Assembly: GCA_019683615.1 (NCBI GenBank)
Contig: JADGIC010000007.1
Location: 1-35,106 of the forward strand
Reading direction: 5' to 3'
Length of the DNA stretch: 35,106 nt
Source: Alicyclobacillaceae bacterium
GTDB lineage: Bacteria > Bacillota > Bacilli > Alicyclobacillales > Alicyclobacillaceae
Shown one piece after another: positions 24,746 through 27,168 of the stretch (positions are counted from its first letter, which is position 1; each line of letters begins with the position of its first letter). Below the pieces are notes generated by a model. The model did not search any database. It worked only from the letters and a program-made list of their open reading frames with translations, and was not told the DNA's origin. Both the position numbers and the translations under genes were made by a program.

Positions 24746-25043
24746 CGGTGGAAGAACGGGAAGCTGGTCCAGTCTGCTGCCCCGGTTTGACTGAACGGCG
24801 GGGGGCCGGTGGTGTACAGGCGCGGTAGGCAAGTGGCTTGGCGTCCTGGCCTTTCGACAAGTTTGCCTCGTACGATGATCAAATCCCTTGTTCGATGATC
24901 AGATCCGTTGTCGGCAAATCATGTCAACGGATGCAAAACACCCCCCGATCACCATCATTCGACAAAAATCGGCGGCTCCTATTGACCATTCTTTTAGATT
25001 GGTTCAATAATGAAATTGGTTCAATAATGAGTTGTCAATAAAT
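24746..25043. repeat. Intergenic stretch with two short tandem duplications
   Basis: No gene is seen. A 20-bp unit starting CGATGATCA is repeated in tandem (24873-24892 and 24893-24912) with three differences. ATTGGTTCAATAATGA (24998-25013) recurs with one inserted T at 25015-25031. The second pair overlaps the promoter region of the riboswitch transcript. Confidence 0.7.
24982..25011 (+). promoter_or_regulatory. Putative promoter of the riboswitch-EAL transcript
   Basis: TTGACC (24982-24987), an 18-base spacer and AATAAT (25006-25011). The duplicated segment provides a second AATAAT at 25024-25029. Transcription would start just before the c-di-GMP aptamer. Confidence 0.45.
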
Positions 25044-25162
25044 CCACAAGTGTTTCAGGGCAAACCAGCGGAAACGCTGGGACGCAAAGCTACGGGTCTG
25101 TCGACGTCCCGGAGAACGAAGCGGTACGGGGCGTCTATGATCGCCGGGCTGCCGCTTGAGGA
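25044..25162 (+). ncRNA. Cyclic di-GMP-I (GEMM-I) riboswitch aptamer
   Basis: The conserved core is clear: CAGGGCAAACC, then a CCAGCG-GAAA-CGCTGG hairpin with a GNRA loop (25066-25081), then GGGACGCAAAGCTACGGG, and the 3' element ATGATCGCCGGGCTGCCG. A variable P3 extension pairs GACGTCCC (25103-25110) with GGGGCGTC (25128-25135). The outer stem can be drawn from TCCACAAG (25044-25051) with CTTGAGGA (25155-25162), one mismatch. It lies in the leader of an EAL-domain gene, so the regulated gene acts on the ligand itself. Confidence 0.92.
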
Positions 25163-25170
25163 TACTCATG

Positions 25171-25200
25171 GGCAGCCGTGTGGCTGCCTTTCGTCGTTTG
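25171..25200 (+). terminator. Intrinsic terminator serving as riboswitch expression platform
   Basis: GGCAGCC (25171-25177), loop GTGT, GGCTGCC (25182-25188), then TTTCGTCGTTT. The 3' end of the aptamer (25147-25153) has the same sequence as the right arm, GGCTGCC, so it can pair with the left arm instead, as an antiterminator. Ligand binding would hold 25147-25153 in the aptamer and favour termination: an OFF switch by inference. Confidence 0.75.
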
Positions 25201-25273
25201 CGCAGCCGCATGGAGCGTTCCACGCGTTCCCGGGCACCTGTATCCAACTTCTTGGGAAGGAATGAAAAACTAG

Positions 25274-25594
25274 ATGGAGCGTTGGGTGTCGGGGTTCCGG
25301 CGCACACCGCACGGACGGCGTACGGAAACCCGCGGGACAAAAGGAGGTGTGAACCTCGCCTCCGATCCGCCTCTCGCCGAAACCACTCCCCAACATGGCA
25401 CCGCGCGCGTGCAGAACAAGCGGATTTTGGTTTCCAATCGGGACGGATTGGGCCTCTCCGCGTCAGCTTGGGTCCCGGTTCAACCGGGCCTCCCAGTGTG
25501 GATGAACGGCTGCCGGGCCACTGGCCACGTGGTGTTGACCGGGGCCACCGCGGCGGACGAGGTGACGGCGTGGTTGATCCAGTTCGACCCGTAA
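25274..25594 (+). CDS. Small hypothetical protein between riboswitch and EAL gene
   Basis: I do not recognise this 106-aa product. Its second half (KRILVSNRDGLGLSASAW to TAADEVTAWLIQFDP) looks like a folded soluble domain, while the first 25 residues are Arg-rich and unconvincing. ATG 25274 has AAGGAA about 12 bases upstream. A very strong AAGGAGGT at 25341-25348 directly abuts an in-frame GTG (25349), which is too close for normal initiation. A three-codon ORF (25262-25273) ends right before the ATG. If real, it lies under the c-di-GMP riboswitch with the EAL gene; it may instead be non-coding leader. Confidence 0.35.
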   Translation: MERWVSGFRRTPHGRRTETRGTKGGVNLASDPPLAETTPQHGTARVQNKRILVSNRDGLGLSASAWVPVQPGLPVWMNGCRATGHVVLTGATAADEVTAWLIQFDP

Positions 25595-25641
25595 ACGGGG
25601 GTGGACCTGCGGGAGGTGTACCACGGGAGGCTGGGTGAGAG

Positions 25642-27168
25642 ATGTTCAGCAGATTCGCAGGCAGAAACGGGCTGTGGGTGGCGTGGACAGGGCATTCGTT
25701 GCGGGCGGTTCCTCTGGGCACGTTGGCGCTGACCGCGGCGTGGTGCGGCGGTGCGGCATTCGCGCTGGGCATCGCTGCTCGGGCTTGGCGGAAACTGCGC
25801 CGGCGCGACCGGCTGACCGGACTGTACAACGGGAGAGGGTTGTTGACCCGCCTGCAGTCGGTGCTGACCGCGCGGGCAGCAGACAACGCGGACCTGCTGC
25901 CGCCCGTCGCCGTGGCGGTGGTCGACATTGACAGGTTTCGATGGCTGAACGAATCACTGGGCTACAAAGCGGGCGACGAGGTGTTGAAGGTGGTTGCCCG
26001 CCGGCTGGAAGGTTGCGTGGCGGACCGCGGCACCGGGGTTGCGCGTATGGACGGTGACACGTTCGCCTGGGTGATGCCGGGCCTGGGAGACCGCGCAGCG
26101 GCCGCTCGCTTTGTCAGCCGCGTGGTGGACGAGGTGTGCAAAGGCATGACCGTCGGCGGGCGGCTGTACCGGCCGACGCTGTCGGCGGGCATCGCGGTCT
26201 ACCCGGACGATGGTGCGGAAGCGGGCGTGCTGCTTCGGCACGCCGCGACCGCGCTGCACGCCGCACAGGCGGAAGGCCGAGGAGTCATTCGCACGTATGA
26301 CCCAGCTATGAGCCGACGCTTTCAAGAACAGTTTCACCTTGAAAGTGAACTCCTTCGGGCTTTGGCCAACGGCGAGTTTGTGTTGCACTACCAACCGCGC
26401 GTGCAGCTGTCCACTGGGGCGATGTCCGGCGTGGAAGCGCTGCTCCGGTGGCAACACCCTTCACTCGGCCTGCTGCCGCCAAGCCGGTTCATCGACGTGG
26501 CGGAAGAGACTGGCCTGATTGTGCCGATTGGTGAGTGGGTGATCCACGCGGCCTGCCGGCAGGTCAAACAGTGGCAGGCGGAAGGCCTGCCGCCGCTGCG
26601 GGTGGCAGTGAACATTTCCCCGCGCCAGTTTCAACGCGACGACGTGGTGGCGGTCGTCGCTCAAGCCTTGGAGGAACACGGCGTGGATCCGGCGTGGTTT
26701 GAGGTGGAGATCACGGAGCAGGTGTTCATGGGCAACATTGACGAGGCGAACCGTAAAATCCACGCCTTCCGGCGCATGGGCGTGTGCGTGGCCATCGACG
26801 ATTTCGGGGTCGGCTATGCTTCTCTCAGCACCTTGAAACACTTTCCAGTCGACTGCGTGAAAATCGACCGGTCGTTCATTCGCGACGTTCCGGCCAGCCC
26901 GGAAGATGCCGCGATTGTCAGCGCTGTCATTGAGTTGGGCCACAGCCTCCGGTTGCGCGTGGTCGGGGAGGGTGTGGAGACGCCGGAGCAGCGGATGTTC
27001 CTGGAGGCCCGCCGTTGTGACGAGGTTCAGGGGTATTATTTCAGCCATCCGGTGCCTCCGGAAAAAATTCCGAATTTGTGGCGAAACATGAGCCGCCGCG
27101 AGAAATCCGGCGCTGGGGCATCCCTGCCGGGTTGCCTCTGCACCGCCGGATTGAGCAGCGAACCGTAA
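25642..27168 (+). CDS. GGDEF/EAL c-di-GMP phosphodiesterase with degenerate GGDEF
   Basis: This 508-aa protein has one membrane segment near residues 25-45, a GGDEF domain (about 55-220) and an EAL domain (about 230-490). The cyclase signature reads DGDTF at 137-141 instead of GGDEF, losing the metal/catalytic Glu, so synthesis of c-di-GMP is unlikely. In the EAL half VEALLRW (E265-L267), NISPRQF, EITEQ, DDFGVGYASL, KIDRSF and GEGVETPEQ are intact, so phosphodiesterase activity is expected, with GGDEF perhaps as a GTP sensor. The ATG at 25642 follows GGGAGG with about 10 bases between. It lies downstream of a c-di-GMP riboswitch, giving direct feedback. The last 25 residues look unstructured. 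Confidence 0.9.
   Translation: MFSRFAGRNGLWVAWTGHSLRAVPLGTLALTAAWCGGAAFALGIAARAWRKLRRRDRLTGLYNGRGLLTRLQSVLTARAADNADLLPPVAVAVVDIDRFRWLNESLGYKAGDEVLKVVARRLEGCVADRGTGVARMDGDTFAWVMPGLGDRAAAARFVSRVVDEVCKGMTVGGRLYRPTLSAGIAVYPDDGAEAGVLLRHAATALHAAQAEGRGVIRTYDPAMSRRFQEQFHLESELLRALANGEFVLHYQPRVQLSTGAMSGVEALLRWQHPSLGLLPPSRFIDVAEETGLIVPIGEWVIHAACRQVKQWQAEGLPPLRVAVNISPRQFQRDDVVAVVAQALEEHGVDPAWFEVEITEQVFMGNIDEANRKIHAFRRMGVCVAIDDFGVGYASLSTLKHFPVDCVKIDRSFIRDVPASPEDAAIVSAVIELGHSLRLRVVGEGVETPEQRMFLEARRCDEVQGYYFSHPVPPEKIPNLWRNMSRREKSGAGASLPGCLCTAGLSSEP

Follow-up and report, generated by a model that had tools for sequence, protein, structure and literature searches.

Known c-di-GMP riboswitches and phosphodiesterase genes

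The closest described counterpart of the RNA considered here is Cd1 of the Clostridioides difficile flagellar operon, a c-di-GMP-I aptamer whose 3' strand is the competitor for the terminator in a three-strand switch. Its ligand-bound form can coexist with the terminator, resulting in an OFF switch (PMC9262584). GEMM RNAs were noted early 5' of some DGC and PDE genes, according to PMC12564702 (Weinberg, Sudarsan), and a later review describes riboswitch control of c-di-GMP metabolic genes as rare (PMC6366702). Also in C. difficile, the transcript of the GGDEF-EAL phosphodiesterase CD630_07570 goes down 5.1-fold on raised c-di-GMP; we found no statement on riboswitch control of this gene in that report (PMC6200980).

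The locus described below shares its three-strand layout with Cd1. Unlike it, Cd1 controls flagellar genes rather than an enzyme of c-di-GMP metabolism, and possesses an experimentally proven terminator. The sign of regulation predicted here is the same as that observed for CD630_07570, though the mechanisms may differ. In comparison with the earlier reports of GEMM RNAs near DGC and PDE genes, the wiring found here is frequent within one bacterial family and is tied to FapA.

The locus and its aptamer

The window, that is the whole stretch of 35,106 nucleotides that was analysed, contains the following features:

24982..25011 (+): promoter-like site TTGACC-18-AATAAT, agreeing with the consensus at 10/12 positions
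25049..25156 (+): c-di-GMP-I (GEMM-I) aptamer, RF01051; P1 pairs 25047-25052 with 25153-25158 in the computed folds
25147..25153 (+): segment A, GGCTGCC; serves as antiterminator strand without ligand and belongs to the aptamer with it
25171..25177 (+): segment B, GGCAGCC; partner of A (antiterminator) or of C (terminator)
25182..25188 (+): segment C, GGCTGCC; 3' arm of the terminator-like hairpin, with a GTGT loop
25189..25199 (+): imperfect U-tract TTTCGTCGTTT, read from the sequence and absent from the standard terminator scan
25202..25209 (+): segment D, GCAGCCGC; partner of 25180-25187 (segment C) in the read-through fold, from folds of transcripts reaching at least 25210
25274..25594 (+): open frame of 106 aa; its 25388-25549 section is left over from the N-terminal region of a FapA/DUF342 gene that is otherwise deleted
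25642..27168 (+): GGDEF-EAL protein of 508 aa, a predicted c-di-GMP phosphodiesterase from domain scans; ribosome-binding site GGGAGG at 25625-25630
25804..26280 (+): degenerate GGDEF domain, motif DGDTF
26347..27051 (+): intact EAL domain, with E265, N324, E359, D386, D387, K407, E443 and Q463

The preliminary description of this DNA had placed a GEMM-I aptamer before an EAL protein. The aptamer is borne out by cmscan, which recovers RF01051 at 68.6 bits (E 1.3e-11; cut-off 35 bits), spanning the full model (1-87) with zero broken pairs marked; the protein is indeed preceded by it, but is a GGDEF-EAL protein rather than EAL alone. The aptamer sequence, CAGGGCAAAC, shows a G at what we take, from the Vc2 structure, to be the ligand-pairing position, which is the c-di-GMP type as opposed to the A of cGAMP (GEMM-Ib) aptamers, and we infer that the RNA binds c-di-GMP. 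It has a GAAA (GNRA) tetraloop, while the tetraloop-receptor segment reads CUGUCG rather than the usual CUACGG/CUAAGG, a form that none of the others shares among the 84 sampled aptamers with a readable receptor segment. This unusual receptor could alter the ligand affinity, and in combination with a long insert in the P3 arm it may lower it. The promoter-like site is of the sigma-70 type and ends at 25011, 38 nt 5' of the aptamer; one such site was found against 0.5 expected from shuffles of 2.9 kb.

The upstream region additionally contains an apparently broken, shortened c-di-GMP-I-type aptamer at 24820-24876 (-), scoring 29.7 bits (E 6.7e-4 genome-wide), which has lost most of the second stem and lies 170 nt from the intact aptamer on the opposite strand, divergent to it and with no gene of its own behind it. 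Tandem direct repeats occur at 24866-24905 (20 nt x2, 85%) and 24998-25030 (16 nt x2, identical, ATTGGTTCAATAATGA); both are intergenic and 5' of the aptamer, and are possible operator sites. Pairs of aptamers were also observed at two loci of relatives, one divergent and ~220 nt apart (L190; G025:C1:2055587- and 2055894+), the other in tandem and ~95 nt apart (L188; G033:C1:3796259+ and 3796443+).

A predicted OFF-type expression platform

Two copies of GGCTGCC, reported earlier as terminator and matching antiterminator segments, are exact at the positions of segments A and C, and the GGCAGCC of segment B can pair with either. Segment A supplies the 3' strand of that aptamer's second stem as well as the C that pairs with the ligand, and contributes one base to P1; because it belongs to the aptamer, A-B pairing and the ligand-bound aptamer are mutually exclusive. 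When the 74 nt 3' of the aptamer were shuffled with the aptamer held fixed, and scored for a hairpin 5' arm matching the last 24 nt of the aptamer over 7 nt, such a dual-use pattern appeared in 0.03% of 20,000 dinucleotide shuffles. The B-C hairpin is GC-rich and terminator-like, with 8 bp and a computed stability of -15.6 kcal/mol. In the intrinsic terminator proposed previously the U-tract is poor, and the hairpin is not among the matches of the standard terminator scan; the label is plausible but weak.

In computed folds of transcripts ending at 25189-25196, the ensemble energies of which leave out tertiary contacts, the antiterminator form lies at -67.2 to -68.5 and the terminator plus P1 at -67.5 to -68.0 kcal/mol, so that with the polymerase at the U-tract the two differ by 0.5 kcal/mol or less. 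Once the transcript has grown by another 10-20 bases, past 25205, segment D captures C and read-through becomes the favoured fold. As the folds are near-balanced at the decision point, the energy contributed by the ligand would decide between them, toward termination. Part of the ligand-stabilised aptamer doubles as the antiterminator strand, in competition with the terminator-like hairpin 3' of it, as is typical of transcriptional OFF switches, and the location of this strand inside the aptamer implies that ligand should favour termination. The riboswitch is hence predicted to be an OFF switch that acts by terminating transcription.

This layout was compared across 88 aptamers from the bacterial family of the host, which together with this locus make 89 loci. 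Terminator-like hairpins accompany 59 of the family aptamers, and in 48 of these the hairpin's 5' arm is a better partner than its 3' arm for the 3' end of the aptamer. At the 14 loci sharing the segment the two strands co-vary, GGCTGCC being accompanied by GGCAGCC in 4/4 and GGTTGCC by GGCAACC in 8/10 cases (Fisher 0.015). In most of the orthologues that employ a different aptamer segment (GATCGCC, see below) the terminator fold is also the more stable one as computed, and a read-through state there would therefore have to be kinetic; the present locus is among the closely balanced cases.

An ON switch, in which c-di-GMP promotes read-through and a high signal induces its own destruction in a homeostatic negative feedback, would need the aptamer's own strand as a terminator arm. 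However, a U-tract of any kind follows just one hairpin, B-C, which lies outside the aptamer; none follows A-B. ON switches driven by c-di-GMP-I aptamers do exist (Vc2, PMC12564702), a homologous aptamer fold acts in the ON switch pilM (PMC9262584), and with its weak U-tract the terminator is a putative one. On the other hand, the OFF layout is common to the relatives and the tested class I switches of C. difficile are all OFF, according to PMC9495176, citing PMC6200980; we thus regard an ON switch as unlikely.

The FapA remnant and orthologous loci

The aptamer and the start codon of the enzyme are separated by 485 nt that include a gene remnant. The open frame in this spacer aligns with the FapA of a relative (G026) across 50-54 aa at 37-38% identity (E 3e-8 in the pairwise comparison and 9e-6 against 4 kb plus two loci), and we term it a remnant because only ~54 residues align. 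The 106-aa frame yields zero Pfam matches, including none to the FapA_N and beta-solenoid domains (PF03961 / PF20250). We rejected it as an independent gene, there being no Pfam match and part of it being accounted for by the FapA alignment. Its GC content by codon position resembles that of a coding frame, and a short FapA fragment might still be translated from it.

The nearest kin of the enzyme, from G024, G025, G026, G034 and G036, also have a c-di-GMP-I aptamer upstream, and with this one the six enzymes cluster in the best tree, moderately supported at 58/91. The order in G025, G026 and G034 is aptamer, full FapA (620-650 aa) and GGDEF-EAL gene, and in G036 the aptamer lies directly 5' of the GGDEF-EAL gene. 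G024 has likewise been left with just a piece of FapA, in its case a C-terminal one; the FapA losses in G024 and in this genome are two independent events, both of which kept riboswitch and enzyme. Several orthologues use another aptamer segment, GATCGCC, for the same purpose, and the switch logic is therefore shared among orthologues that differ in its sequence. The locus is best read as a reduced form of a lineage-wide operon comprising the riboswitch, FapA and an EAL protein. A KaiC-like gene precedes the riboswitch in G024, G025 and G034, with only a weak match in this genome. At three loci (L065, L066 and L068) a KaiC-like ATPase and a LuxR-type regulator are encoded just 5' of the riboswitch-FapA-PDE operon, and a second c-di-GMP-I aptamer occurs on the far side of the KaiC-like gene.

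The loss of FapA, reduced to ~54 recognisable residues here and with none elsewhere above the cut-off in this 2.4 Mb, 85.6% complete assembly, bears on a further reading, namely that the leader was inherited from the lost operon and is decaying or non-functional, the enzyme being expressed mostly from another promoter. The odd receptor segment, the imperfect U-tract and the broken aptamer nearby point in the same direction, and the 485-nt spacer with its decayed gene could reflect a linkage in decay. Against this, the aptamer core and all model pairs are intact, the platform pairing is perfect over 7 nt and near-balanced, a plausible promoter lies directly 5' of the aptamer, the genome retains three other full aptamers, and G024 independently lost most of FapA yet kept the riboswitch and the enzyme. 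Decay of the switch therefore strikes us as improbable.

The enzyme and the rest of the genome

All 8/8 catalytic residues of the EAL domain, metal-binding residues included, are present, whereas the GGDEF domain reads DGDTF in place of the GG(D/E)EF signature; the product should therefore degrade c-di-GMP, and is probably a net phosphodiesterase. Its best PDB relatives are GGDEF-EAL proteins of Pseudomonas aeruginosa that we take to be MorA (E 1e-105) and MucR (E 2.5e-98), from which it differs in its degenerate GGDEF domain. We know of no riboswitch control for either of these.

Elsewhere the genome encodes the flagellar export protein gene flhA, and over the whole assembly EAL stretches number five, GGDEF stretches six and full c-di-GMP-I aptamers four, two of these aptamers preceding EAL genes. 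The second such pair (L073; G000:C110:4940-5036, (-)) also shows an OFF layout, GGCAGCCC vs GGGUUGCC. Since the EAL protein of this pair has lost key residues (QAL, DN, KVG), it is probably a receptor or decaying. While that protein, the ability of GGDEF-EAL proteins to be either bifunctional or receptors, and the intact GGDEF motifs of the G024 and G026 orthologues could suggest a working switch whose product has both activities or acts as a c-di-GMP receptor instead of being a net phosphodiesterase, leaving no positive feedback, the complete EAL site and the DGDTF motif make this quite improbable for the enzyme at hand.

Recurrence of the wiring in the host family

An EAL gene occurs on the same strand within 3 kb downstream of 26 of the 74 best-scoring aptamers (taken in score order, one skipped), with two more of the 74 showing one just past the 3 kb read, and FapA is present, whole or partial, at 21/89 loci, and together with EAL or GGDEF-EAL at 16/89; many of these loci are orthologous, and the counts do not represent independent events. 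The wiring comes for the most part with the OFF layout described above. The commoner form has the aptamer followed by an EAL protein of ~330 aa and then FapA. A Spo0E-like C-terminal domain (PF09388) was found in 9/10 of the EAL-type proteins of this form that were scanned, an EAL-FapA fusion being counted separately. The riboswitch-linked EAL proteins with this domain are those of L198, L170, L173, L174, L190, L084, L211, L218 and L222, with FapA next in most. The fusion is an 867-aa EAL-FapA protein encoded behind a c-di-GMP-I aptamer at L202:354-2954 (+). It is possible that such EAL-Spo0E proteins directly link c-di-GMP to sporulation control; judging from these domains and from a SpoIID gene found in G036, the family would be one of spore-forming Bacillota.

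Fifteen named Bacillota loci with distant GGDEF-EAL proteins had no c-di-GMP-I aptamer, and the riboswitch link is therefore not a general property of such enzymes. Among the papers searched, none dealt with FapA and riboswitches together (one match cites a FapA paper and no more) and none with EAL-Spo0E proteins.

The proposed circuit and its significance

Based on these observations we propose, as the likely reading, that the leader of this phosphodiesterase gene contains an OFF-type, transcription-terminating c-di-GMP-I riboswitch which closes a positive-feedback loop. In the absence of c-di-GMP, segment A would pair with B and C with D, and the polymerase would pass through the FapA remnant and on to the GGDEF-EAL gene. 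Binding of c-di-GMP would keep A in the aptamer and let B pair with C, the resulting terminator halting transcription. As the EAL domain is expected to cleave c-di-GMP, a high ligand level would lead to less enzyme and thus to more ligand, making the circuit one of positive feedback that would reinforce either a low-c-di-GMP, probably motile, state or a high-c-di-GMP state.

The preliminary description had made positive feedback conditional on ligand promoting termination. Both halves of this claim gain computational support, the polarity from the antiterminator strand within the aptamer and the OFF layout shared with the relatives and Cd1, the enzyme activity from the state of the EAL (8/8) and GGDEF (DGDTF) sites; in cells positive feedback is probably the sign of the loop. 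Bistability is possible in such a model; it needs cooperativity and enough flux through one enzyme, in a genome with five EAL and six GGDEF stretches.

The RNA class is an ordinary one; the circuit is less ordinary. If an RNA turns off production of the very enzyme that breaks down its ligand, a single gene suffices for positive feedback without a protein regulator, and hysteresis in a second-messenger system would therefore be directly testable. Beyond what had been described before, the FapA remnant in the spacer and the recurrence of the wiring across the host family come into view. That roughly one in three of the best-scoring aptamers sampled shows this wiring, along with FapA and EAL-Spo0E fusions, suggests a lineage-level circuit of c-di-GMP, FapA and sporulation rather than an accident of one genome. 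More tentatively, and at somewhat less than even chances, the combination, in this family, of a c-di-GMP-I OFF riboswitch, an EAL phosphodiesterase, often as a Spo0E-like fusion, and FapA may represent a conserved positive-feedback module, in which low c-di-GMP would lock in the phosphodiesterase, FapA and an altered sporulation control, with the present locus being a stripped-down version in which the phosphodiesterase alone is left.
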